The translations under genes were made by a program, and so were the position numbers. Below the pieces are notes generated by a model. The model was not told where the DNA came from. It ran no database searches and was given only the letters and a program-made list of their open reading frames with translations. Shown here piece by piece: positions 1-16,957 of a stretch of 64,000 bases of DNA. The stretch is taken from the NCBI GenBank assembly GCA_021286645.1, contig JAJTBZ010000075.1, positions 1-64,000 of the forward strand, written 5' to 3'. Within the stretch, counting starts at the first letter, position 1. Every line of letters begins with the position of its first letter. The DNA comes from Ignavibacteria bacterium. GTDB lineage: Bacteria > Bacteroidota > Ignavibacteria > Ignavibacteriales > Ignavibacteriaceae.

Positions 1-977
1 TTCCGCAAAGATCCGGAGGCTCCGCTAATATCAGAAATATTATTGCTTCCCTCAAGGATAATATGCCCGTAAGGCATTGTTACTTTATTTACTACCGTCG
101 ATAGTGCAGTTGACGATGGTGTTATAGAATTCGTAGTGAAATTATATTTGAAGCCTGATGAAAGTTGATCAAAGCCCATGTTCGTTAAAGAAAATTGCTT
201 ACCTGCCTCAGTGCTATATCGGGTATCACTAGTCCAGCGATATAGCCCGACTACAGAAGCACCCATTACTTCGCCAATGCCATCGCTGTTAATTGCAAAT
301 GCGGTGTTCACATCAACAGCGATGCCCATAACCTGTTTTTGAGCTTGTTCCTTATAACGTGCCAGAAAAACCGGTAATCGACCTATTCGGCCTCTCTCGT
401 TAGTATGGCTTTCAGCCAGAGCTCCCTGAACGAATGGTAGAAAGTCATCTACTAATGTTATAGATGCTCCTGCATTGGCTAGTAGGACTCCATTATCTGT
501 ATTACCAGATATATACGACACACTGCTCAGTATCATTTCACCTGCACTGGTGCCGCCAATAACCCCGCCTCTCTGGAAAACTTCTTTGATTGCTTTCTGG
601 GCAAGTGTACCCTTCCATTTACTCACATATTGGGCCTGATCTCCGCCACGTAAGAATATACCATCGTGTTGCAGTATTAAACGATAGACGGACGAATCAT
701 TTGCCTGAGCCGTTGTACTGATGAAATAATTTGATACACTACATGGACTCAGGGAAGGAAAATACCCGGAGAACCATGTAGTTGTATCAGCATAGTGTAG
801 TACGAGAATTTTTCTGTTTGGAGCATGCTCTACCAGCCACTTGTACGGTACATCGGACCAGTCGCTATAGTTTTCACTTCCGCCACCCACCAATAGTACA
901 CTCCCTTGAGCTATTAATGTGCTGCTCGCGAATACCCCGATAAGAATGGTAAGCTGCATCCAATTAGGAATTTTCAT
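1..977 (-). CDS. exported S51-family peptidase, cyanophycinase-like (partial, runs off the window)
   Basis: The reading frame is open for about 325 codons from the ATG at 977 to the window edge, so the C-terminus is missing. Residues 1-24 look like a type I signal peptide ending in LIAQG. The S51 landmarks are visible: FLRGGDQ near 108-114, the nucleophile elbow GGTSAGE at 141-147 (Ser144), and ESHTNERGRIGRL at 189-201, the counterpart of the cyanophycinase DQHFxxRxRxxRL segment. DQHF has become ESHT, so specificity may differ from classical CphB. The start overlaps the stop of the upstream porV-like gene as ATGA, which indicates translational coupling. The family also includes dipeptidase E; the exported location and the second S51 gene at 8911-9768 favour a cyanophycinase-type role. 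Confidence 0.85.
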   Translation of the reverse strand, partial: MKIPNWMQLTILIGVFASSTLIAQGSVLLVGGGSENYSDWSDVPYKWLVEHAPNRKILVLHYADTTTWFSGYFPSLSPCSVSNYFISTTAQANDSSVYRLILQHDGIFLRGGDQAQYVSKWKGTLAQKAIKEVFQRGGVIGGTSAGEMILSSVSYISGNTDNGVLLANAGASITLVDDFLPFVQGALAESHTNERGRIGRLPVFLARYKEQAQKQVMGIAVDVNTAFAINSDGIGEVMGASVVGLYRWTSDTRYSTEAGKQFSLTNMGFDQLSSGFKYNFTTNSITPSSTALSTVVNKVTMPYGHIILEGSNNISDISGASGSLR

Positions 978-1987
978 GACTCAATCCTAATTCCCAAAGT
1001 AATTACGTGTCCCAATCTGCCAAAAGCCACATACGAAAAATCGAGATGCGACATCATCCCATAAAGATTTGTTTGCAGGCCTAATCCGGTACTTAATCCC
1101 TGTTCATCAAAACCGGTTTTATAACCAACTCGTAGAGAAAGAGTTTCATTCCATTTATAATCACCACCGAATAACAATTGCGTGTTATTATCATTCGGAT
1201 CATTAACAGCAGCAGAGAGTGTTAGTTTGTTCTCTTTTGTGTTGATAGGATCAATGGCTATTCCAACATTGAATAATTGTGGCAGAGTATACTCCGGGGA
1301 AACCCTTTCATTCCGGGGATCGTACGGATAACTAATACCAGACTGTTGAATTACCGATGGCTTCTGGTCGATTGCATCTCCCGAGTAGGTAATGTTCCCG
1401 CCGAAATTCACCAATCTCATTCCTATTCTCAGGTTATGAAAATCTGTGCGATATACTGAGCCAAGATCGAATGCCCAGGTAGAACCATTAGTAGTCCAAA
1501 TGTAATCGTATATATATTTGACTGTTCCACCAAAACTAAACCGATCAATTACATTCATACCGTATGAAATACCCGCGCAATAGCTTCCTGCATTAAAGTA
1601 TTGACCTGTACCATCGGGTTGTGTTTCGGTCGTAATCTCCATCTGATCCATGGTTAACGCGGTAAAACTAATTCCCAAAGCACCATAGCCGATATTCTGT
1701 GCTACGCCTACAAAGGAAAGCCTCGTATCAGCTAACCAGCTTACATGCGAAGCCACCACATCTGTACCATTTATATAGGCCAATGCAGAGGGATTCCAAT
1801 ACATACCCGTGACTCCTTCAACAGAAGCGACATTGGAATTACCCAGAGCAGCGCCTACAGGCTCGACAGGAATTTTTAGGAATGTAGCTCCAGCCGATCC
1901 AACATTACTAAACGATTGAGCATACAAATTCATCGTGTAGCTGCAAACGAATAAAAGTACTAACGATTTTATTATCATATTTTTCAT
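974..1987 (-). CDS. PorV/PorQ-family outer-membrane beta-barrel protein
   Basis: This 337-aa protein has a signal peptide (residues 1-23, ending NLYAQ) followed by the motif SVGSAGATFLKIPVEPVGAALGN-like opening typical of the PorV/PorQ (UPF0164) family: SNVGSAGATFLKIPVEPVG, then GVTGMYWNPSALA. The rest is alternating beta-barrel sequence with a C-terminal strand ending LGIRIES. In known T9SS systems PorV shuttles cargo to the attachment complex, but many such paralogues sit beside one secreted substrate. Here it follows a T9SS-sorted protein by 18 bp and overlaps the S51 gene downstream, so it probably serves this operon's own surface proteins. That dedicated role is inference. Confidence 0.8.
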   Translation of the reverse strand: MKNMIIKSLVLLFVCSYTMNLYAQSFSNVGSAGATFLKIPVEPVGAALGNSNVASVEGVTGMYWNPSALAYINGTDVVASHVSWLADTRLSFVGVAQNIGYGALGISFTALTMDQMEITTETQPDGTGQYFNAGSYCAGISYGMNVIDRFSFGGTVKYIYDYIWTTNGSTWAFDLGSVYRTDFHNLRIGMRLVNFGGNITYSGDAIDQKPSVIQQSGISYPYDPRNERVSPEYTLPQLFNVGIAIDPINTKENKLTLSAAVNDPNDNNTQLLFGGDYKWNETLSLRVGYKTGFDEQGLSTGLGLQTNLYGMMSHLDFSYVAFGRLGHVITLGIRIES

Positions 1988-2005
1988 GATTAAATCCTTT
2001 CTCCC

Positions 2006-3934
2006 TTATCTCACTACCGCGAACTTGCTTACTTTGTCACCAAATTCAGACTTAACGTGGTATATATAAATACCCGTTGCAATAAGCTGATTTGATGAAG
2101 AACGTAAATTCCAGAACTCAGCACCTGTGCCATTCGTGTGTTCAATTGTTTTAACAAGAGTGCCATCAAGCGTATAAATTCTAATCGTACATTGATTGGG
2201 CAAATTAGTAAATGCCAAATCTCGAATCGGTTCACCAAAATCTACATCCCCCAACCGCTTGCGTTCCCACGTGGATGAAATGATATAGGGGTTTGGTACA
2301 ACTTTTACATCGCTGAGCGTTTTGCGCGGAGATGCAACGGGGCGAGCTTCTACAACATTTTCAAACTTCGACTGATTTGCCGGTAATAGCGCTTTACCCG
2401 ATTCTATACTGTCAACATCCAGTACGGTAACCGCGTAGGAATAATAGAAATAATTGTTTATGCCAATACTGTCCTGATATGAATATAAATCATTAACCAG
2501 GGTACCGTGAGTTGTATCTCTCTTAATTATTGCAACAGGATCTCCCCAAACAGCTCTGTAAGGATCTGTTGTCTTATATACCCTGTATTCGAGTATACCG
2601 GATTTACCTGTTTGCGGATTTATATATGACAGATCGTTCGCATTACTCCAACTCAGTTTTATTTTTTTATCAAACGCGGTATAATTTATTGTTGGTTTAG
2701 GCGGGGGCGTTAACCGCAAACCATTATTGTAAATTTCCTGTATTCTTCCGGCAACCTTATATAAACTGGCTTGATCCCTCTGAGCCAACTCAGCGAATAT
2801 AAACGTCATTTTCTGGCCCGGCTCCATATGGTACGGACCACTCGCAGCCAATCCATCAACACCATCGCCATCGGGCATAGCCCCGGTTAACGTATCCTGC
2901 AAACGCCAATCATCTATGTGCCGGTTGGGGCCATGAAACAAGGTTGGGCGATTAGGATTATTACGAAGTATTTCAGCGCTTGACATCCAGTTATAAAATA
3001 TTGTATCATCTGTAGGATTATCTCCCCAGGCTGATGTATAAACACCGCTATAATGCCAATCGGTAATTCCGGGGCGACGGCCATTTGCGCTAACCACTTT
3101 ACCGTTGTTATCGATCATCGGGGTTTCAAGAAACATTAAACCTAATAAGAATGGACTTGATCCGGGTTCCCATCCGGTTTCACCGGTAGGCCCTACTACA
3201 TATGTAAGCTGCCGGGTAGAATCCCAAACATAGTAATCGTTAGAAAAATTGGCTACAATTCCACCCGCATCAAAATCATAATAAATACCAAAGTACAGGC
3301 TATCTTTTGCTGCGGTAGTATCATTCAACAATTCCAGCTTCCAGATAATATAATCCTGATCCTTAGAAGTACTCCAGGCATAGCTGGTTTGTGTAACAAC
3401 AATATTGAGCTTATTGGGGCGGGCATTGGTTAAATCTCTATACCGGCAATAGGTATCCTGTTGCGATACAATACTGTCTTTGCCATCCTTTGTACGAACA
3501 GGCCAATAAGGCTGGTTATTGCCGTCCAATGGCCACGTTGTTTTATCAGTACTAATCGCGATCTTTCCCGTTGCTAAATTATGATCGCCAGGTATCGGAT
3601 CCCATTCCTTCGTCCCGCTCGCTCGCGCATTAGCTACGTTATATGGAATTCCCACAGCGAACGACATTTTATACATTTGATCATGGCTCGTATTAATCGG
3701 CCATCTGCCCTTTGGGTACACTCCCTGATAAGCATGGAATTGCCCCATATTTGTTACCACCTGACCCAATTGATTTATCGTAATTACATTCATAGCCCGA
3801 TCAATTGTTGCCGTAACCGAGCTTATCTGTTTCTGATTTGCATCGTCACGGGCATCCTTACGGCGCTGTTGCGCGAACTGCTGAACGGTGCATAGCATAG
3901 CGATAATTAAAATTATTTTTACCGTGCTTTTCAT
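2006..3934 (-). CDS. large surface protein with C-terminal T9SS/FlgD-like sorting domain
   Basis: An upstream ATG at 3976 exists, but the ATG at 3934 is preferred: AGGAG lies 9 nt before it and it opens directly into a signal peptide (MKSTVKIILIIAMLCTVQQ). The mature protein of about 620 aa has no recognised catalytic domain. Its middle is rich in Trp, Tyr and Asp, a fibronectin-like stretch runs from about residue 420 (numbered from 3934), and the last 85 residues (from KVVPNPYIISSTWERK to SKFAVVR) match the FlgD-like/type A sorting domain used by the type IX secretion system. It sits between a TonB receptor and a PorV-like barrel. It could be the surface ligand-binding partner of the receptor in place of a SusD, which is inference; no SusD motifs were seen. 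Confidence 0.7.
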   Translation of the reverse strand: MKSTVKIILIIAMLCTVQQFAQQRRKDARDDANQKQISSVTATIDRAMNVITINQLGQVVTNMGQFHAYQGVYPKGRWPINTSHDQMYKMSFAVGIPYNVANARASGTKEWDPIPGDHNLATGKIAISTDKTTWPLDGNNQPYWPVRTKDGKDSIVSQQDTYCRYRDLTNARPNKLNIVVTQTSYAWSTSKDQDYIIWKLELLNDTTAAKDSLYFGIYYDFDAGGIVANFSNDYYVWDSTRQLTYVVGPTGETGWEPGSSPFLLGLMFLETPMIDNNGKVVSANGRRPGITDWHYSGVYTSAWGDNPTDDTIFYNWMSSAEILRNNPNRPTLFHGPNRHIDDWRLQDTLTGAMPDGDGVDGLAASGPYHMEPGQKMTFIFAELAQRDQASLYKVAGRIQEIYNNGLRLTPPPKPTINYTAFDKKIKLSWSNANDLSYINPQTGKSGILEYRVYKTTDPYRAVWGDPVAIIKRDTTHGTLVNDLYSYQDSIGINNYFYYSYAVTVLDVDSIESGKALLPANQSKFENVVEARPVASPRKTLSDVKVVPNPYIISSTWERKRLGDVDFGEPIRDLAFTNLPNQCTIRIYTLDGTLVKTIEHTNGTGAEFWNLRSSSNQLIATGIYIYHVKSEFGDKVSKFAVVR

Positions 3935-3975
3935 TCTCTCATTCTCCTTTATACAGGTATTACAAACTATTTTCA

Positions 3976-6516
3976 TTATAGATTAAAATCGACGCCGAAG
4001 TATATTGTACGCGGCGAAGCATAGTTTGTAGGGTCTTGTTGAAAATCTGGTGTATTTTTTGGCGATTTATCAGTACTTCTGTCCGGTAATCCTGTATCAG
4101 AATAAACTGAAATTACATTTTTCCTGTCGAAAAGATTTCTCACATCGAAATAAACTCCAATTGTAGCCAACGAAGTTTTAAATTCTTTTCGCGCGTACAA
4201 ATCGAATGTAAGAGTGTACGGTAAGCGGGAATTATTTGCTTCGGGGACAAATAATGCTCTGGCAGGGTTAAATGTGTACGGAAGCCCGCTGCCATATTGG
4301 CCAACTAAACTAAATGTGGTATTCTGAAATACACTTGGCAGTAACTCGAAGGGCCCTTCGGCATCGGCAAAATCAAATGTAAGCTGCATATTGGCAGTAT
4401 GACGCTGGTCGAAATCCAATGGCAGGAAACGCAATGATTGAATTCCTCCATCATGATTAAATACATTAGAATACCTCTCCTGCTGTGAAGACGAGCTGCC
4501 CTTAGCAATTGAATACGTATAATTACCAACCCAGGAAATATTATGGAAACGGGTTTTAACTGACATTTCAAAACCTTTTACACTGGCAAAATCCTCATTG
4601 ATATAGTATGCATAAGCATGTGGCTCATATACCCAGCCAATTCCTATAAGATTCTCAATCTTTTTACTGAAGAATGTCACCTGCCCGGTAACTGACTTGT
4701 CTATGAACATCATAACACCCAGTTCGTAGCTTGAGGTTTTTTCCGGCTCCAGGGTTGGCGAGCCAAATAACGTATTACCACGATTTGCAAAATTTCTTTC
4801 AAGATTATTATATAGAGTCTGGTATTCGGGTCGTTGGAAAAACTGCCCATACGAGAAATGGAATACAAGGTTTTCTCGAACCGGATATGAAATACCTAAC
4901 CGGGGACTTAACGAGGTTCGTACTTTTGTATCTTCCGTTGCTGTTTTGTCGATAGGATCAAGATAGAATGCTGTTTTGGCGGCGAAATAGTCAAATCGCA
5001 GCCCAAGGTTTAGAATGATTGTCTGGAACTCAATTTTATCCTGTATGTAAGCCGAACCATCAGTCGGGGATTTTACATATTGATTAATTCTCTGGTCGTT
5101 CGCATTACCCGGGTTGGAATTATAATAATAATCAAGATCATTGAGACGAATTTCCGCTCCTGATTTTACTAAATTGAAATTATCATACTGCCAGGTAACA
5201 TCACCTTTTATCGTGAAAGTTTTTGTTGTCTGTTCCTCATAAGAAACCGGCGCATCTCCGGTGCGGAGGAAGTAGCTATTTGAAAATGTCGAGCCATACG
5301 GGAAAGGATATTGTTCTTTCGAAAGCCCGTTCACCGAATGAAGATAATGATATTTATAGTACGATACCCGCAGATCATAAATAAAATTATCCGAGATTAC
5401 GTTGCGGAAATTTACACCGATGAGATTGTTTTCAGAAGTGTTCAGATATGTGCTGTCAGGTACAAACCGCATGCCATGTGAATAGTTTCGCCATTTACGT
5501 TTGGAGTAATTATCCAGTAAAGTAAGTTTAGCCGAGCCCATCGGGATCCACGAAAGTTTACCCACCAGTGATAATTGATCGTTAAAGCCAAAGGGTTTAT
5601 CTTTCGAAAAATCAATTGATTCAAGCACACCATTATTGGAACGGGTTAATCCGGAATAGTAATAATTATCTGCATCCGTTTTTTTGCCGGAGACCATGAA
5701 GCCAAAAGGACTTTTCTCCCAGAGCGGACCACTGAATGTTCCTTCAAATACGCGTTCATTTAAATCAGTACTGTATGATTCCATCCCCATACTTGTGCGC
5801 TTGTAGGTCACATTAGCGCGAAATTTTTCTGCATTTTCTTTCGTGACAATATTTACAACTCCGGAAAGAGCATTGCCATACTCGGCGTTAAACGTACCGG
5901 ATAATAATTCCATTTCCTGAATTGCCTGATTATTAACCTGTGCAGTAACATTGTTAAACAAGGGATCTTCTACACGATAGCCATCAATATAATAGCCAAC
6001 TTCACCGGCCCTGCCGCCCCTTATATGCAACGCACCCGTATTAACAACACCAGTTTGTAGTTGCAATACATCAGAGACTGAGCTCACGGGTAATGATGCA
6101 AGATCTTCCGCATAGGTCTTTTGAATTGTTGAACTTTGATCTCGCTGTACAATGATGCGCTCACCCAATACTACAATTTCTTCCCCCTGCACGGCATCCT
6201 GCCCCAACAGGACATTCAATGTTTTAGTCTGGTCTACATTAATAAAAACTTTGTGTGTTTCATTTACATACCCCAAATATTTTACAAGGACCTCATGCCA
6301 ACCCGGAGAGATATTTAATACATTATAATAGCCGTCTTTATCAGTTATTGCTCCGGCAGCTGGTTTAGCTGTTTGAATAATTACGGTTGCACCAATGAGT
6401 GGTTCACCTGTTTTCTTATCAGTTACTCTCCCTGCCAGTTTTCCCGTGGTTCCCGCGAAGGTATTAGCAATGGTGAATAGTACCAGAAAACATACATTCA
6501 TTACCTGAATTTTCAT
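3976..6516 (-). CDS. TonB-dependent outer-membrane receptor
   Basis: This 846-aa protein has a signal peptide (1-22), a carboxypeptidase-regulatory-like domain (about 25-110: GRVTDKKTGEPLIGATV, DKDGYYNVLNISPG), a plug domain (about 130-235, including LHIRGGRAGEVGYYIDGYRVED and AEYGNALSGVVNIVT), and a 22-strand-type barrel ending in YFGVDFNL. It imports a bulky ligand across the outer membrane using TonB/ExbBD energy; no TonB system is encoded here. The gene lies 105 bp after the RpiR regulator gene and 41 bp before the T9SS-sorted protein. The ligand cannot be read from sequence; the peptidases and transporter in the operon point to a peptide or oligomer. Confidence 0.9.
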   Translation of the reverse strand: MKIQVMNVCFLVLFTIANTFAGTTGKLAGRVTDKKTGEPLIGATVIIQTAKPAAGAITDKDGYYNVLNISPGWHEVLVKYLGYVNETHKVFINVDQTKTLNVLLGQDAVQGEEIVVLGERIIVQRDQSSTIQKTYAEDLASLPVSSVSDVLQLQTGVVNTGALHIRGGRAGEVGYYIDGYRVEDPLFNNVTAQVNNQAIQEMELLSGTFNAEYGNALSGVVNIVTKENAEKFRANVTYKRTSMGMESYSTDLNERVFEGTFSGPLWEKSPFGFMVSGKKTDADNYYYSGLTRSNNGVLESIDFSKDKPFGFNDQLSLVGKLSWIPMGSAKLTLLDNYSKRKWRNYSHGMRFVPDSTYLNTSENNLIGVNFRNVISDNFIYDLRVSYYKYHYLHSVNGLSKEQYPFPYGSTFSNSYFLRTGDAPVSYEEQTTKTFTIKGDVTWQYDNFNLVKSGAEIRLNDLDYYYNSNPGNANDQRINQYVKSPTDGSAYIQDKIEFQTIILNLGLRFDYFAAKTAFYLDPIDKTATEDTKVRTSLSPRLGISYPVRENLVFHFSYGQFFQRPEYQTLYNNLERNFANRGNTLFGSPTLEPEKTSSYELGVMMFIDKSVTGQVTFFSKKIENLIGIGWVYEPHAYAYYINEDFASVKGFEMSVKTRFHNISWVGNYTYSIAKGSSSSQQERYSNVFNHDGGIQSLRFLPLDFDQRHTANMQLTFDFADAEGPFELLPSVFQNTTFSLVGQYGSGLPYTFNPARALFVPEANNSRLPYTLTFDLYARKEFKTSLATIGVYFDVRNLFDRKNVISVYSDTGLPDRSTDKSPKNTPDFQQDPTNYASPRTIYFGVDFNL

Positions 6517-6561
6517 GCTGCTTCTCTCCTTGTTATGATTTCACATAACACTATCTTTAAG

Positions 6562-6594
6562 CTCTTTCCCCGTTATAAAAGTGTGGGGAATGAG
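6562..6594 (-). promoter_or_regulatory. intercistronic stem-loop between rpiR-like and TonB-receptor genes
   Basis: On the minus strand CTCATTCCCC and GGGGAAAGAG pair over 10 positions with one mismatch, around a 13-nt loop. No U-run follows, so this looks more like an mRNA-processing or stabilising stem than a terminator. It sits in the longest gap of the operon (105 bp), just before the receptor gene, a place where receptor transcript could be made more abundant than regulator transcript. Confidence 0.4.
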
Positions 6595-6621
6595 AACATG
6601 AGTTTATTTGTTTACTATTGA

Positions 6622-7479
6622 TTATTCGAGCGTATTTCTTTGAAGCTTAGTAACATTCTTTAACTGAGTCAACCATTTGGTAGATTTTACTTCGTTTTTC
6701 AACGCGCATTCGGTAACAATTGCATTAATTAACACGGATATTGCAGCGAAAGAATTTGTGAATAACATATTTTCACTTTTTATTATCATTGTGGCATCGC
6801 TGTGTAATGCAATAGGTGATGATTTTTTGTTGGTAAATGAAACGACTTTTATTTTTCTCTCTTTAGCAAACTTTACAGTTTCAATTGTATCTTTTGAATA
6901 GGGGGGTAATGATAATGCTATTAGCAAATCATTCGGATTCATGAATAAAACTTGCTCCATGAATGTGGACTGGTTATTATTAAAGGTCTGAGAACTTATT
7001 CCTATCTGGTTCACCTGGTAGGAAATTATATTTGCAAGTAAGTAAGAAATACCCAAACCGACGGTAAAAACTCTATCCGATTTGGATATTAGCTCGACAA
7101 CTTTTTCAAAACTCTCTTTTTCATTCAGCCGAACTGTTTCATTAATATTCGTAATATCCTGATTTGCTACTGAAGTAAGCATATTATCATTCAATTGAGC
7201 AGGATTTATGAGTGGAAATAACGATTCATCTTTAAACCGTTTCTGAAGAGACTGACCAATTTGATCGCGCAGTTCACTAAAACCCGAAAATCCGATTTTT
7301 TGGGCGAATCGCACTACTGCAGCGTCATTTGTCGAAGTAGCTTTCGCCATTTGCTGGGCAGTCATAAAAGGTATTGATTCGAAATTTTCCAGATAGTAAT
7401 CGGCTATTTTTTTATGTAATGCAGGCAATGAGTCGTATTGCTGCTGTATTCTGGCTTTTAACTTCTTGTAATTTGTCAT
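6622..7479 (-). CDS. MurR/RpiR-family transcriptional regulator (HTH + SIS)
   Basis: An N-terminal HTH_6 domain (about residues 1-75, with the recognition segment STNDAAVVRFAQKIGFSGF) is followed by a sugar-isomerase (SIS) ligand-binding domain (about 110-250). The ATG at 7479 has GGAG 6 nt upstream and is preferred to the in-frame TTG at 7491. RpiR regulators bind palindromes and usually sense phosphorylated sugars or amino sugars through the SIS fold. The gene sits inside the peptidase/transporter operon, so it is the obvious candidate to bind the palindrome at 10883-10906. Whether it represses or activates cannot be read from the sequence. Confidence 0.88.
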   Translation of the reverse strand: MTNYKKLKARIQQQYDSLPALHKKIADYYLENFESIPFMTAQQMAKATSTNDAAVVRFAQKIGFSGFSELRDQIGQSLQKRFKDESLFPLINPAQLNDNMLTSVANQDITNINETVRLNEKESFEKVVELISKSDRVFTVGLGISYLLANIISYQVNQIGISSQTFNNNQSTFMEQVLFMNPNDLLIALSLPPYSKDTIETVKFAKERKIKVVSFTNKKSSPIALHSDATMIIKSENMLFTNSFAAISVLINAIVTECALKNEVKSTKWLTQLKNVTKLQRNTLE

Positions 7480-7517
7480 TATTTGCTCCAATTCCCTGAT
7501 TTAATTCATGAATAATT

Positions 7518-8909
7518 TTACTGGTAATTAAAGAAATATGGCGGAATAAGCAGCAGTAATGCAAGTATTAAGAAAAATATTTGCAAAGGCAGCATCCATT
7601 TAAACCATTTATCCCAGGAAATACCAGCAAGCCCCAGCACTCCCATAGTTACTCCCGAAGTAGGCAGTATCGGATTTATCCAGCCTTCTCCGAACTGAAA
7701 AGCTAAAACTGCAGTCTGCCTCGAAACCCCAATGACATCTGCCAAAGGAGCCATAACCGGCATTGTTAGCATTGCCTGACCTGAAGCAGAATGCACAAAG
7801 AAATTTATCGTAGCCTGCATTAAAAACATTGCTTGCGAAGCTAACACAGGATGCAAATTCTGTATTACTCCCGATAAACTATAGAGGAACGTATCGATTA
7901 TTTTACCATCTGAAGCAATTACTAAAATCCCCCGGGCACAACCTATAATTAATGCCACTCCCACCATGTCTTTCGCGCCGTCCTTAAAAGCATCGGTAAT
8001 TTCCTGTGTACTCAGCTTGCCTAAGTATCCTGCTACAATTCCCAAAGCCAGAAACAAAGCACCCAATTCAGTGATATACCACTTAAATTCCAATATCCCG
8101 ACAATGAGAACTATCATCGCGATGAAGAATGACAACAATACAAATTTATGTTGTTTGGAGAGTCGCTCACCGGATCGTGTATCCAGTTGCATTTGTTCTT
8201 TACGCTTCTGGTCGAAAGCATACATTAAACTTTTAGTTGGGTTTTTCTTTATTTTCTTAGCATACGCTATAAGAAATACAATAACAGCCAGTGTGCTCAG
8301 CACCCATATAAAAATTCTATATCCCAATCCGCTATAGAGGGGTAATTCGGCAATACTCTGGGCAATTCCTACGGTAAAAGGATTTAGTGTTGAACCCGCG
8401 AATCCTGCCGCAGCACCTAAAAATGGAATGGCTGTCCCTAATATGGAATCATAGCCCAAAGAATAACAGAGAGGAATGAAAATGAGGATAAACGGAATGG
8501 TTTCTTCAGAACTGCCAAATATACTGCCCGCAATGGAAAAGATCGTTACCGTAACCGGTATAAAATACTTCTGCAAATATGGTTTTTCCGTAAAAATATA
8601 CGCTACCCTCTGTACTGCTGCCATTATTGCCCCCGTTTTTTGCAGGGCACTAAAAGCGCCACCAATTATAAAGAGGAACCCTATTATCATAGCAGCCTGA
8701 GTAAATCCTCGTAATGGCGACATAAGCAGGGCACCTATACCTTGCGGCTGCGATGCGATATAATGGAAGGAGTTTGGAACGACCAGGGTACGCCCATTTT
8801 TAACTTCTCTTTGGTATTCGCCACCGGGTACTACCCAAGTCAGGATGGCAACCACAGAAACAACTACAAATACCATTACTAAGGTGTTAAAATTCAACTT
8901 GATTTTCAT
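7518..8909 (-). CDS. YfcC-family inner-membrane transporter
   Basis: This 463-aa protein has about 12 hydrophobic segments and the typical YfcC opening: an N-terminal helix followed by WVVPGGEYQREV, and later FIIGGAFSALQKTGAI and SASGQAMLTMPVMAPLAD. The family (DcuC/C4-dicarboxylate-carrier-like superfamily) is often annotated as basic amino-acid or arginine/ornithine antiporter, but few members have tested substrates. The start is 1 bp from the stop of the upstream exported S51 peptidase gene and an M20 peptidase gene lies one gene further up. The likely cargo is therefore a small peptide or amino acid released by the peptidases, such as beta-Asp-Arg, which is inference. Confidence 0.85.
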   Translation of the reverse strand: MKIKLNFNTLVMVFVVVSVVAILTWVVPGGEYQREVKNGRTLVVPNSFHYIASQPQGIGALLMSPLRGFTQAAMIIGFLFIIGGAFSALQKTGAIMAAVQRVAYIFTEKPYLQKYFIPVTVTIFSIAGSIFGSSEETIPFILIFIPLCYSLGYDSILGTAIPFLGAAAGFAGSTLNPFTVGIAQSIAELPLYSGLGYRIFIWVLSTLAVIVFLIAYAKKIKKNPTKSLMYAFDQKRKEQMQLDTRSGERLSKQHKFVLLSFFIAMIVLIVGILEFKWYITELGALFLALGIVAGYLGKLSTQEITDAFKDGAKDMVGVALIIGCARGILVIASDGKIIDTFLYSLSGVIQNLHPVLASQAMFLMQATINFFVHSASGQAMLTMPVMAPLADVIGVSRQTAVLAFQFGEGWINPILPTSGVTMGVLGLAGISWDKWFKWMLPLQIFFLILALLLLIPPYFFNYQ

Positions 8910-8910
8910 G

Positions 8911-9768
8911 CTATTTATTCTCTATCGGCTTCCTGATTTTTAGTTGGTAGGTATCCCCCTCACATAAGATATGAGTTATAATATTCTGCGCGCTATATAT
9001 CGAATTCGTGTTTATTTTCGTGTTCGTGACATGTGCTGCATCTATAACCAATACCGAACTATTGCCAATAACTTCAATTTCGTCAGTTGGTTTAACCCAT
9101 ATAGCAGTTGATTCGTCAATTCCTATTCCCAACTTCTCCGGATTATCCAATATTACACTAAATAACCTGTTAGCGCGTCTTCTTTTTATAAAATGCTGGT
9201 CGATGATACATTGATCAAGAAAACCAAATCCTTCGGCAACACAAATATTGCCTTTTTTTATGCTTGAATATGCATTGGTGCTATCTTTATCAATCAATTC
9301 CTCGCCGGTAATCATTGTCTTGCTCATTATCGCAGCCCCTGCACTCGTTCCGCCAATAACACCACCGGAGTTATATATAGCCTTTACCCGTTCTAAAAAC
9401 CGGGTTCCTGATAAGGCACGGGTTAGTTTCGTCTGATCGCCACCGGTAAAGAACACTCCTGTTACACCGTTGAGTTTCGCCATTAGCGAGTCTGAATCAA
9501 TTTCTCCACGATTTGCAATCACTACTACTATGTTATTACAACCAGCCGCTCTCAATTTTACTGCAAAAGCTTCCGCTCCCTTTTCCGGTTCCGCGCTTGC
9601 CAGCGGAATTATTGCAATTTTATTTGCCGCCCCGCCTGCAAGCGAAATAAATTTCGCTGTAATACTTGCGGGAATAGCGCCACCGCCAATTATTATCAGG
9701 TGCCCTTTGCTGGCGGCCGTACAGTTAAAAACTGCTAAAAGAGCAAGAAGGAGGCTTATCCGTTTCAT
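8911..9768 (-). CDS. exported cyanophycinase-like S51 peptidase
   Basis: This 285-aa protein has a signal peptide (1-20, MKRISLLLALLAVFNCTAAS; the Cys is not in a good lipobox). The S51 signatures are FFTGGDQ at 106-112, GGTSAGAA at 139-146 with Ser142 as nucleophile, and DQHFIKRRRANRL at 190-202, close to the cyanophycinase DQHFxxRxRxxRL substrate-site segment. Cyanophycinases hydrolyse the beta-Asp-Arg polymer cyanophycin to dipeptides. The ATG overlaps the M20 stop codon by 4 bp (ATGA). Length and motifs fit cyanophycinase better than cytoplasmic dipeptidase E, which is shorter and unexported. It is a diverged paralogue of the S51 protein at 1-977. Confidence 0.88.
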   Translation of the reverse strand: MKRISLLLALLAVFNCTAASKGHLIIIGGGAIPASITAKFISLAGGAANKIAIIPLASAEPEKGAEAFAVKLRAAGCNNIVVVIANRGEIDSDSLMAKLNGVTGVFFTGGDQTKLTRALSGTRFLERVKAIYNSGGVIGGTSAGAAIMSKTMITGEELIDKDSTNAYSSIKKGNICVAEGFGFLDQCIIDQHFIKRRRANRLFSVILDNPEKLGIGIDESTAIWVKPTDEIEVIGNSSVLVIDAAHVTNTKINTNSIYSAQNIITHILCEGDTYQLKIRKPIENK

Positions 9769-10856
9769 AGGGTAATTAACTCCATTATAATATTGCTGGT
9801 CTTGTGCAGATCCTCATAGAGAATATATTCATCATTGGAATGCGGGTTGGCAGCGCCAATTCCCAAATTTACACTTGGAATGCCACGGGCATTTAAGGAA
9901 TTGGCGTCACTACCACCCCAAGATTCATTGGGGACGGGTGACAATCCCGATTTTAGAATAGCTTCAAATACTCTCTTATACACCGGCATGTCAGGTGTAA
10001 GTGTATAAGGTTTAAAACCCCAATCGAAAGTAATTGAAACATTACCGTGTAATTCTTCTGCAGCAGTATAAAAATACTTTTGAATTTCATCGGCCTTGGC
10101 CTGTATTTTTTCCGGATTCAAAGACCTGATTTCGCCTTTAAGTTCGGTTAATTCCGGTACAACGTTTACCGCAGTACCACCACTAATAACTCCAATATTT
10201 GCGGTTGTTTCTTCGTCAATTCGGCCTAAACTGAGTTTGCTAATGGCATTGCCCGCAATTTTAATTGCATCGATTCCTTTTTCAGGTGCTAATCCTGAAT
10301 GGGCTGATTTACCGTTTACCAGAATATGAAAATCCAGAGAGCCAACAGATTCCCGAATAAAATTGCCCGGACGTAAATGAGAGTCGAATATAAATCCCAT
10401 TTTTATATTTGGATGCAACTCAAGATTTAATCCGCCTGCCAGGGTTGTTTCTTCCTGTGTAGTAAAGCAAATAGTAAAATCCTTCAGTGGTGATTTTTCG
10501 AATATTGCTTTTTCGACCGCATAAAGTATGCAGGCAATCCCGGCACGGTTATCAACACCAAGTACGGTTGTACCATCAGAAGTAATGCGATCAGCAAGTA
10601 GTTTCGGTCTAACTTTTTCAGTGGGCCGGGCTGTATCCATGTGTGACAGGATCATGAAATCACCGCCATTACCAATTGGACAAAGAACATTACCACAGTT
10701 ACTTTTAGTCCGATCAGCCGAAGCATCCTCATAGGGATGAAGATTGAGGTTTTCGAGAAAGTTTTTTATATAATCAGCTACCGGGCGCTCCGAGCCAGAA
10801 AGCGCATTTATCTTAATTACTTCACAAAAAATGTCGAGCAGTCGGGAGTTTTGCAC
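9765..10856 (-). CDS. M20-family metallopeptidase (peptidase T-like), cytoplasmic
   Basis: Zinc-peptidase landmarks are SHMDT (HxD), GVDNRAG (bridging Asp), TQEET (catalytic Glu and ligand Glu), DSHLRPG, SWGGSD and the late NPHSNDE His ligand, with the inserted dimerisation domain between them. The frame stays open upstream to a TTG at 10931, but that extension contains the promoter and operator. The GTG at 10856 (363 aa) gives a normal family N-terminus and is my chosen start; its ribosome-binding site is weak. There is no signal peptide, so it acts in the cytoplasm on imported peptides. It is the first gene of the operon. It could be an isoaspartyl/beta-aspartyl dipeptidase, an aminotripeptidase or an amidohydrolase; the context favours the first. 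Confidence 0.85.
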   Translation of the reverse strand: MQNSRLLDIFCEVIKINALSGSERPVADYIKNFLENLNLHPYEDASADRTKSNCGNVLCPIGNGGDFMILSHMDTARPTEKVRPKLLADRITSDGTTVLGVDNRAGIACILYAVEKAIFEKSPLKDFTICFTTQEETTLAGGLNLELHPNIKMGFIFDSHLRPGNFIRESVGSLDFHILVNGKSAHSGLAPEKGIDAIKIAGNAISKLSLGRIDEETTANIGVISGGTAVNVVPELTELKGEIRSLNPEKIQAKADEIQKYFYTAAEELHGNVSITFDWGFKPYTLTPDMPVYKRVFEAILKSGLSPVPNESWGGSDANSLNARGIPSVNLGIGAANPHSNDEYILYEDLHKTSNIIMELITL

Positions 10857-10882
10857 TGTAATATCCGTTACTTTAAATAATT

Positions 10883-10906
10883 TTGTTGTAGCATCCACTA
10901 CAACAA
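10883..10906. promoter_or_regulatory. perfect 9+9 bp palindrome, probable operator of the peptidase operon
   Basis: TTGTTGTAG and CTACAACAA flank a 6-bp spacer (CATCCA on the plus strand). It overlaps the -10 hexamer and the expected transcription start of the leftward promoter, so bound protein would block initiation. The only DNA-binding protein encoded in this operon is the RpiR-type regulator at 6622-7479. RpiR-family sites known from HexR are TGTA/TACA palindromes, and this site contains TGTAG...CTACA. The assignment is inference. Confidence 0.6.
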
Positions 10907-10931
10907 TACACAAAAACCCCGAACATGTCAA
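10903..10931 (-). promoter_or_regulatory. sigma70-like promoter of the peptidase/TonB-receptor operon
   Basis: On the minus strand TTGACA (10931-10926) and TATTGT (10908-10903) are separated by exactly 17 nt. Transcription would start near 10896, about 40 nt before the GTG chosen for the M20 gene. The -35 matches consensus fully. This is a sequence match only and no start site has been mapped. Confidence 0.6.
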
Positions 10932-13982: not shown

Positions 13983-14882
13983 TCAGAAAAGTTTTCTGAC
14001 AACCGCATAAGTTTCCCAATCCCCCTGCATTAAACTATGTGCAGCTACCGGAATGGTGCACCCGCAGCTACTACAATCAATACCCTCGCCAAAAACACAT
14101 GGTTGTTTCAAATGCATTGCGGGAGTATATGATTGTACCAGTCCCTTTCTGAGAATACATGTTTCCACATGACTCTTGCTTAAGACTGTTTCGATCATTT
14201 TTCCGGATATTAATATATAGTCCGGATCAATCCTCTTTAACTCGCGTAAAGTATTTACTGCCTGCTCCAACTCATCACGCTGTAATTTGTCGGTGTCGTC
14301 TTTTCGGGCGGTATAAAATGAAAACGATATACCTTTTACACGGGCAGATTTAGCTGCTAAATAAAGTCCATGGATATTTGAAAAATTTTGCCGGGTAATG
14401 GTTGCAAGGATTACTGTTTTCGAACGGCCGGATATATTTTTCATCGTACGCGCGAATGTACCCTTGCCCCTGATCTCATCATGTTCGGCTTCCGCGCCAT
14501 CAATGCTAACATAAAACGAATTTTTTAGCTCTGGTGGCAGCGGCATTGTGCCATTGGTAACAATATTTACATTTCGATAACCAAATATCCTGTTTGCAGC
14601 ATCAATGACTTTCGGGCGTAATAAGGGCTCACCGCCTGTAAGGTACACGTTGGAAACATTTTCATTTTTATGACGTATAAAGACCTGTTCCCACTCCTCA
14701 TCAGAAAGAGCATCAACCATTGTTTTGTTATTGTTTTTATAGAAATAGCAGTGAATACAATCTAAATTACATTTATATGTAATATCATAGTTAACAGATA
14801 TTGGGGTCCGATGTACTTTATAGTTGTACAACATCCTTAACAATGAAACGAGATAACCGAATGGCCTAAGTAGTGCCCGCAA
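13983..14882 (-). CDS. radical SAM protein
   Basis: This 299-aa protein has the radical SAM cluster motif CNLDCIHC at about residues 38-45 and the SAM-binding TGGEPLLRP near 100-108. A Cys-rich C-terminus follows (ETCILRKG, QPCVFGEGIDCSSCGC) that probably binds an auxiliary Fe-S cluster, as in SPASM or HpnH-like proteins. The N-terminal 35 residues are basic. It is transcribed alone, convergent with the YCF48-like gene. No peptide precursor or modified-cofactor pathway is next to it, so its substrate is unassigned. Confidence 0.82.
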   Translation of the reverse strand: MRALLRPFGYLVSLLRMLYNYKVHRTPISVNYDITYKCNLDCIHCYFYKNNNKTMVDALSDEEWEQVFIRHKNENVSNVYLTGGEPLLRPKVIDAANRIFGYRNVNIVTNGTMPLPPELKNSFYVSIDGAEAEHDEIRGKGTFARTMKNISGRSKTVILATITRQNFSNIHGLYLAAKSARVKGISFSFYTARKDDTDKLQRDELEQAVNTLRELKRIDPDYILISGKMIETVLSKSHVETCILRKGLVQSYTPAMHLKQPCVFGEGIDCSSCGCTIPVAAHSLMQGDWETYAVVRKLF

Positions 14883-15062
14883 ATTTAACTTCCTGTCATT
14901 AATCGAAAAATTTTCCTAATATACAAAAATTCGAAATAAGCTTATGAAAAGCCGTTTGCATTTTTTTGCCGGCACCATAATACACTGAAGTAAAATGATA
15001 GTTCCTCAGATGGCTGCATTGTTGTACATTTATTTATTAATTATTCAATTTCCGGGTAGTCA

Positions 15063-15767
15063 ATGTCAAAAAAATATTTTCTTGTTCTTACAATTATATT
15101 GTTATGCATGCAGGGAATTTCGGCACAATCCGGGAAAGGCCGACTTGTTGATATAGACGGGAATGAATATACGGTAACCAGAATTGGAAACTTTGACTGG
15201 ATGTGTGAGAACCTGCGGTGCAAACATTTGAATACAGGTACCCCGTTAATAAATATAACCGATAACGCTCAATGGATAAATACACATACGGCAGCGTTTA
15301 CCTGGTATAATAATAATCCCAAATACCAGGATTCCACGGGGTTATTATATAACTGGTATGCGGTAAATACAGAAAAGCTCTGCCCATTAGGTTGGCATAT
15401 CCCTTCCGATGATGAATGGAAGAACCTTGAAGGCATTGTAGATTCACTCTACTCTGTGGGGAATGAAGTCTGGAATGAATCCGGTTTACGGGGATCGAAT
15501 GTAGCTGTAGTTCTTAAAGCTACGGATGGTTGGCGAGACAAATATCCGGCAACTGATAGCTATGGTTTTTCGGCACTCCCGGGTGGTGAATATTTAACAG
15601 CTTTTCACGGATATGGAACGAGCGGGTTCTGGTGGACCAGTACTGAATCAGACTCAACAAATGCCTGGTACCGGAATATGGTTTACTCATTCGATAATAT
15701 TGATCGAAATACTCATCCCAAAACTATGGGATTTTCGGTTCGTTGTGTAAGGGCAAAAACACCGTAA
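15063..15767 (+). CDS. secreted FISUMP-domain protein
   Basis: A signal peptide (1-21, ending GISAQ) is followed by a full Fibrobacter-succinogenes-major-paralogous (FISUMP) domain. Its marks are VDIDGNEYTVTRIGNFDWMC, ENLRCKHLNTG, WYNNNPKYQDSTGLLYNWYAV, GWHIPSDDEWKNLE, LPGGEY and FWWTSTESDSTNAWYRNM, ending in GFSVRCVR. FISUMP proteins are exported and usually lipid- or surface-associated; their function is not established. The gene stands alone with 170-180 bp on each side. Confidence 0.82.
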   Translation: MSKKYFLVLTIILLCMQGISAQSGKGRLVDIDGNEYTVTRIGNFDWMCENLRCKHLNTGTPLINITDNAQWINTHTAAFTWYNNNPKYQDSTGLLYNWYAVNTEKLCPLGWHIPSDDEWKNLEGIVDSLYSVGNEVWNESGLRGSNVAVVLKATDGWRDKYPATDSYGFSALPGGEYLTAFHGYGTSGFWWTSTESDSTNAWYRNMVYSFDNIDRNTHPKTMGFSVRCVRAKTP

Positions 15768-15940
15768 CACTTTTTCTAAAACATAGAATGGATTATATTA
15801 CAAACAGGCTTTAACGCTGATTACATTAATGACTTCCATTACAATAAATTTAATCTGTTCGCCGGTTATAGAAGTTATAAGCAATCATATTATCAATGTA
15901 AAATTAACTGAATCAAATTTTTACGATTAGCATAGATACC

Positions 15941-16957
15941 ATGACGTATAGTAAATATACCAGACATATCATTCTCACACTTACCGGAATAATGTTTCTG
16001 ATAAGCGGTTTTGCAAAATTATTCCCCATTTCTTCTTTCGAGTTTCAATTGGTATTGAAAGGTTTTGCAAGCTGGTTAACTGCGCCCTGGCTTAGCAGGT
16101 TTTTAATTGGAACTGAACTGTTTTTGGGCTTCAGTTTACTCACTCAGCAAAAATATTATGTTTGGTTTACCCGGGCTGCAATAATGCTGCTCACTATTTT
16201 CAGCATATACCTTGTTCTGGATATCATATATAACGGCGGTGATAAAAACTGCGGATGCTTTGGAGAAGTAATACGTATGTCCTCCCCTGCAGCTCTGTTA
16301 AAAAACATACTAAGTATTATCATTTTAGTCCCGCTGGTTACGCGTCGAAATTCATCTGGTCGGGTTTGTATGGTTTTACCTGCTGTGGGTTCTGCTTTCA
16401 TTACCCTCTTATTGATTTTGGTCATAGTTCCGGTTAAGAAATATAATTCTCCGGTTAAAAGTATTAGCCCGCAGGCTATAGCGATAGAAATACCAAATAC
16501 AAAAGTTAAAACTGTAACAGATAGATTTATACATCCGGATACTTTACATAATCGGACCCGACAGGAGCCGCAACCGGCACACTCCGTCTTCTCCCGTTTT
16601 ACATCTTTCTCAACCGGTAATATAAATCTCGATGAAGGTAAAAAAGTAGTTGCTCTTCTTAGTTTGGACTGCGAGCATTGTCTGAAAGCGGCTCAAATAC
16701 TACATGAAAGCCAAAAAGCCGATAAAGCATTTCCGATATTTGCATTGTTTCTGGGTGAACAAAGTCAGGTAGCTGATTTTATGAAGCAAAGCGGCTTATC
16801 TTGCCCTTATATGATTCTTGACGCTCAGGATTTTTTCCCTCTCTTAACGAAAAGCCCTCCACGGGTATGTGTTCTTTGGAATGGAAATGTTATTCGGAAT
16901 ATCGAATCTGAGGAATTTGAGCCTATACAGTTACCTAAAAAGTGGCCGATAAATTAA
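15941..16957 (+). CDS. MauE/DoxX-type membrane protein fused to a thioredoxin-like CEHC domain
   Basis: The first 165 residues contain four to five membrane helices in the MauE/DoxX pattern (MFLISGFAKLFP, LIGTELFLGF), with CGCFGE as a periplasmic Cys pair. After a linker rich in Pro and Thr (about 170-225), residues 235-338 form a thioredoxin-like domain with LLSLDCEHCLKAAQIL as the CxxC site and a later SGLSCPY. It probably moves electrons between membrane and periplasmic disulfides, as MauE does for amine dehydrogenase maturation. The gene ends 8 bp from the convergent flippase gene. No client protein is recognisable next to it. Confidence 0.75.
   Translation: MTYSKYTRHIILTLTGIMFLISGFAKLFPISSFEFQLVLKGFASWLTAPWLSRFLIGTELFLGFSLLTQQKYYVWFTRAAIMLLTIFSIYLVLDIIYNGGDKNCGCFGEVIRMSSPAALLKNILSIIILVPLVTRRNSSGRVCMVLPAVGSAFITLLLILVIVPVKKYNSPVKSISPQAIAIEIPNTKVKTVTDRFIHPDTLHNRTRQEPQPAHSVFSRFTSFSTGNINLDEGKKVVALLSLDCEHCLKAAQILHESQKADKAFPIFALFLGEQSQVADFMKQSGLSCPYMILDAQDFFPLLTKSPPRVCVLWNGNVIRNIESEEFEPIQLPKKWPIN

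Follow-up and report, generated by a model that had tools for sequence, protein, structure and literature searches.

We identify an operon of eight genes that probably serves to scavenge cyanophycin or another branched poly-aspartyl polymer closely related to it (estimated probability ∼0.6). It lies at the start of a 64,000-nucleotide stretch of an Ignavibacteria genome (hereafter the window). T9SS-exported S51 peptidase S51b would trim the polymer at the cell surface, and a TonB-dependent receptor, a T9SS-sorted partner and a PorV-type protein would bring the fragments across the outer membrane. In the periplasm, a second S51 peptidase (S51a) would finish the cleavage to β-Asp-Arg dipeptides. 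These dipeptides would be imported into the cytoplasm by a YfcC-type carrier and split into Asp and Arg by an M20 peptidase. An RpiR-type regulator would repress the operon at a palindrome lying over the promoter.

Eight co-directional genes had been proposed in a first-pass annotation of this DNA, and we recover all eight open reading frames on the minus strand, with profile scores upholding every one of the family assignments. Along this strand, the operon starts with a PepT-like M20 metallopeptidase (positions 9765–10856), followed by the cyanophycinase-family serine peptidase S51a (8911–9768), a YfcC/DcuC-family inner-membrane carrier (7518–8909, PF03606 351 bits) and an RpiR-family regulator with HTH_6 and SIS domains (6622–7491). 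Next come a TonB-dependent receptor with carboxypeptidase-regulatory domain, plug and barrel (3976–6516), a surface protein with a T9SS type A tail (2006–3976), a PorV/PorQ-family outer-membrane protein (974–1987; NF033709 180.7 bits, cut-off 90) and the exported, incomplete S51b (3–977, PF03575 36.6 bits). The overlaps described earlier are present and measure 4 bp at M20/S51a and at PorV/S51b, and 1 bp between TonB receptor and T9SS-tail protein. The M20 gene had been started at a TTG codon at position 10931, which belongs to a probable −35 box (TTGACA); the more likely start is GTG at 10856, as judged by alignment with 25 relatives. S51b is cut because position 1 of the window is also the first base of its contig (C80). 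The missing C-terminal half runs up to the end of another contig of this genome, C16 (query residues 57–371 are found on C80, 395–724 on C16), and is followed there by a T9SS-sorted protein and then by an M14 carboxypeptidase. From the split protein we infer that the two contig ends join and that the operon continues across the break.

The order M20–S51–YfcC–RpiR–TonB receptor–T9SS protein–PorV–S51 recurs in many genomes from several phyla; the arrangement is thus not due to chance and represents a conserved unit. S51a has a match in 42 of the 197 sampled genomes of the class. M20 and S51a are both present in the loci examined in 26 class genomes, and all eight genes in 15 sampled ones, both counts including this genome. 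In many relatives, a gene for a small T9SS-tailed protein additionally separates YfcC from RpiR, and S51b is followed by an M14 gene. Scanning from the M20 side, we took one genome per species and kept the 80 nearest M20 relatives, 73 of which are followed by 1.5 kb or more of sequence. Of these 73 loci, 69 have an S51 gene no more than 6 kb from M20, and in 62 the distance is at most 300 bp; the count describes this M20 group and not all M20 enzymes, as the 80 are best matches only. The S51 and M20 genes, whose association had been suggested from the window, are thus regularly rather than never found together. YfcC is in the locus in 64 of the 73 cases, loci with CphA-like genes among them. 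The records of the M20 carriers are labeled Ignavibacteria, Kapaibacterium, Neomarinimicrobiota, Elusimicrobia, Caldithrix, Acidobacteria and Bacteroidales.

S51a scores 191 bits on the cyanophycinase model TIGR02069, above the equivalog cut-off of 126.6, and fits this model far better than PepE (24 bits). As had been noted for its DQHF/Arg segment, S51a keeps the residues of a cyanophycinase: it is identical to Synechocystis CphB (3en0) at all checked columns, which comprise GGDQ, the nucleophile Ser, DQHF, three Arg and the DE of GIDE. The signal-peptide-like N terminus, which sets S51a apart from CphB/CphE, and the lack of a T9SS tail suggest that the protein is exported and probably periplasmic. 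By sequence, the nearest solved relative of S51a is pseudo-CphB (7uqv, so deposited), which keeps the same checked residues and scores higher on the cyanophycinase model (313 bits). Pseudo-CphB is reportedly inactive, so that membership in the family is no proof of S51a activity. In a tree calculated from a quick run with long branches and used for coarse grouping only, the operon S51a proteins form a group of their own, apart from CphA1-linked S51 proteins. Many of the latter lack the Gln of DQH that S51a retains.

The cut S51b scores 79 bits on TIGR02069, below the cut-off of 126.6. It shares with CphB/CphE the fold family, the nucleophile Ser, the His and the three Arg, whereas ESH replaces DQH and the Glu of GIDE is absent. 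A structure model of S51b resembles cyanophycinase folds and is weak past residue 437. In relatives (L041–L067) the protein has ∼690 amino acids and, unlike CphB/CphE, combines an active-looking first half with a second, degenerate S51 domain and carries a T9SS tail. This C-terminal half aligns with 258 columns of the S51 profile (probability 98.1) and contains no active-site motif, and we thus describe S51b as a tandem S51 protein with a degenerate second half; because of the weak model, the second domain is defined by profile comparison.

The M20 protein scores 243 bits on TIGR01883, below the cut-off of 274, and contains the invariant M20 columns expected for metal binding and catalysis (His-97, Asp-99, Asp-127, Glu-160, Glu-161, Asp-183 and His-364). 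As it has no signal peptide, it is predicted to be cytoplasmic, and we consider it a candidate isoaspartyl dipeptidase. Neither IaaA nor IadA was found in the locus: an IaaA type is encoded only in an unlinked position elsewhere in the genome (C70), and a profile search for IadA returned nothing over the cut-off. The M20 enzyme would take the same step, β-Asp-Arg to Asp and Arg, as CphZ, and likewise in organisms with a cyanophycinase. CphZ is a cyanophycin dipeptide hydrolase that, where PMC10206079 cites Sharon et al. (2023), is described as being of the M14/AstE-AspA type. The M20 protein is not a CphZ, since the M20 family is unrelated to M14. An AstE/AspA-type M14 protein is also absent from the operon, whose exported M14 (L258) matches Peptidase_M14, the zinc carboxypeptidase, only. 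The simple cyanophycin model leaves this secreted carboxypeptidase at the operon end unexplained.

A connection to cyanophycin comes from loci, Kapaibacterium and Ignavibacteria records among them, in which the same M20 type adjoins two cyanophycin-synthetase-like proteins (L106 5552–9950, which is the same place as L072; L108 5809–9891; L109 5594–9926; L160 1–3217). Cyanophycinase and YfcC are also present in L072/L106, L108 and L109, and not in L160, which is cut. The occurrence of these M20 and YfcC types beside synthetase-like genes and a cyanophycinase ties them to β-aspartyl dipeptide metabolism. The CphA-like proteins of L072 score 395 and 335–349 bits, compared with cut-offs of 850 and 877, and both lack the P-loop of the Arg-adding domain, which is also absent in L109. 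CphA2, described from cyanobacteria, has a single active site and repolymerizes β-Asp-Arg (PMC10206079). By analogy, the CphA-like pair may handle dipeptides, and it may correspond to a split CphA2-like enzyme outside cyanobacteria. CphA itself was detected neither in the genome of the window nor in the 12 other family members listed (E ≤ 1e-60), our genome yielding weak partial matches only. The missing synthetase is as expected for a scavenger. In this genome, a cyanophycinase-family S51 protein is clustered with a carrier and a putative M20 dipeptidase.

The operon could instead act on other isoaspartyl or acidic peptides, such as fragments of aged proteins or a pseudo-cyanophycin with another composition, with S51a being a pseudo-CphB relative of different specificity. 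We regard this as unlikely, though several findings speak for it: the best solved match of S51a is the high-scoring pseudo-CphB, the S51a proteins form their own group, an M14 carboxypeptidase accompanies the operon, and the records of several carriers are named after groundwater or other sources without evident cyanobacteria. The location of the M20/YfcC pair next to CphA-like genes argues against it, as does the conservation in S51a of all checked CphB residues including the Gln of DQH, though pseudo-CphB keeps them as well. The pseudo-CphB score and the separation of S51a from the CphA1-linked group also count against cyanophycin or a close relative as the substrate, which we nevertheless favor. 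The same holds for the IaaA-type genes in canonical clusters, the unlinked IaaA-type gene in this genome, the unexplained M14 protein and the ligand habit of RpiR regulators, which usually sense sugar phosphates.

The outer-membrane part of the operon resembles SusC/SusD loci in combining a TonB receptor with a surface partner, exported hydrolases and a regulator. It differs from them in its components: the receptor scores 76 bits on the SusC/RagA model (cut-off 368), which rules out a SusC, there is no SusD-type gene among the eight genes, and a T9SS-sorted partner and a PorV-type protein are found instead. The partner matches TIGR04183 at the cut-off and contains no other known domain. Its low-confidence structure model is β-rich with FN3-like matches, and it is possible that the protein captures substrate for the receptor. 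The T9SS sortase PorU is encoded in the genome (893 bits), consistent with the Por tail of the partner and with the tail of S51b in relatives.

Four further TonB-receptor/PorV modules are present in the same genome (C28, C75, C47 and C98; L259–L262), three of them with a T9SS protein between the two genes. The C75 module adjoins a 4-α-glucanotransferase and T9SS proteins; the T9SS protein examined shows a weak match to CBM20 (starch-binding). The trio of receptor, T9SS protein and PorV-type protein is therefore, as a type of module, not specific for cyanophycin, and we interpret it as a general means of uptake, with the neighboring genes determining the substrate. The additional copies would also fit a trio that is merely a neighboring outer-membrane unit, functionally unlinked to the peptidases. 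This is improbable, since ∼20 class genomes have the trio in the same position, flanked by RpiR and S51b, and since it is also placed after RpiR in records of Neomarinimicrobiota and in Caldithrix, where no PorV gene was seen in the DNA examined. In two relatives (L044 and L054), a large receptor and a lipoprotein-like protein after RpiR occupy the place of the trio, the receptor of L044 being a true SusC (531 bits). In another locus (L050), an IaaA-type β-aspartyl peptidase lies near S51a and M20 was not found. It looks as if parts of the operon were interchangeable.

The surface genes (window positions 3–6516) are 59–64% identical to positions 2040–9789 of L048, which belongs to a genome of another family in the same class, while RpiR, M20 and S51a share only 35–48% identity with this genome, hinting at an exchange of the surface module. 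One relative (L066) has an extra gene between PorV and S51b (14868–16085), whose match to C45-type autoproteolytic hydrolases stays below the cut-off.

Upstream of M20, a likely σ70-type promoter is located on the minus strand (10903–10931, TTGACA-17-TATTGT), the best of five promoter-like sites in the stretch (2.6 expected), with 10 of 12 positions matching. Its −10 box is overlapped by a perfect 24-bp palindrome, TTGTTGTAGTGGATGCTACAACAA (10906–10883, minus strand). Among the 41 loci with RpiR, 20 have a TGTAAT-N4-ATTACA-like site upstream of M20, as do six of the 35 loci without it, compared with 3.1% of random stretches, and the palindromes in relatives are mostly found near −48 and −18. 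The palindrome in the window has the same place and TGTA..TACA core as these sites, but falls below the threshold of that scan. The natural reading is that it represents a predicted RpiR operator, with RpiR as the putative repressor of the operon. MurR belongs to the RpiR family, but recycling of peptidoglycan or cross-bridge peptides, in which a MurR-like RpiR, a DapE/PepT-like M20, a weakly MpaA-like M14 (27 bits in one relative) and the S51 proteins would process muropeptides, is very improbable, given that the operon has no amidase, transglycosylase or MurNAc enzyme and that S51a prefers the cyanophycinase over the PepE model.

Our results partly support the reading of the first-pass annotation: the locus is a conserved unit, S51 is linked to M20, and the M20 and YfcC types also occur beside synthetase-like genes. 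The claim that a surface system dedicated to cyanophycin would be new does not stand: a ‘cyanophycin utilization locus’ has been described in strain L21-Spi-D4 (Salinivirga cyanobacteriivorans; Ben Hania et al. 2017, as cited in PMC10206079), and a dedicated scavenging locus is thus not new as an idea. A plain S51 protein occurs together with a Por-tailed one in Salinivirga and in strain Omega (PMC6243061). The Salinivirga locus resembles our proposed scavenging operon in its clustered cyanophycinases, one plain and one with a Por domain, its transporter and its isoaspartyl dipeptidase. The dipeptidase reported for that locus is IadA, whereas the candidate here is an M20 enzyme. The transport complex in Salinivirga is reportedly of the polysaccharide-utilization type; the receptor in the window is not a SusC, and its partners are a T9SS protein and a PorV protein.

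What is new here is the outer-membrane module without SusC/SusD, the M20 protein as a candidate for a dipeptidase that reportedly has not been found in Bacteroidota, and the predicted RpiR operator. Our literature search found no paper tying Ignavibacteria to cyanophycin degradation. In Ignavibacteria, the TonB receptor/T9SS/PorV module may take the role that SusC/SusD has elsewhere. The operon also suggests that scavenging of cyanophycin-like polymers is not confined to cyanobacterial mats. More tentatively, we propose that the M20 protein defines a new class of isoaspartyl (β-Asp-Arg) dipeptidases from the undiscovered set of Bacteroidota, which, together with a SusC/SusD-independent TonB receptor/T9SS/PorV module and a two-domain surface S51 protein, would enable cyanophycin scavenging in multiple phyla.

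According to PMC10206079, Firmicutes and Bacteroidota have isoaspartyl dipeptidases that remain undiscovered, and the operon offers a specific and widely conserved M20 candidate. We reject the general claim that M20 supplies the dipeptidase missing from canonical Bacteroidota CphA1 clusters, because most of the CphA1 loci examined have an asparaginase_2/IaaA-type gene beside S51, and not this M20. The M20 protein is thus a candidate for scavengers and for CphA-like loci rather than for all Bacteroidota. In many Bacteroidota CphA1 clusters (L220, L222–L224, L226–L231 and similar), the gene adjoining S51 is a short, divergent asparaginase_2-type gene (∼280 amino acids), assigned to Asparaginase_2 by Pfam, which may account for the dipeptidases reported missing in this phylum.
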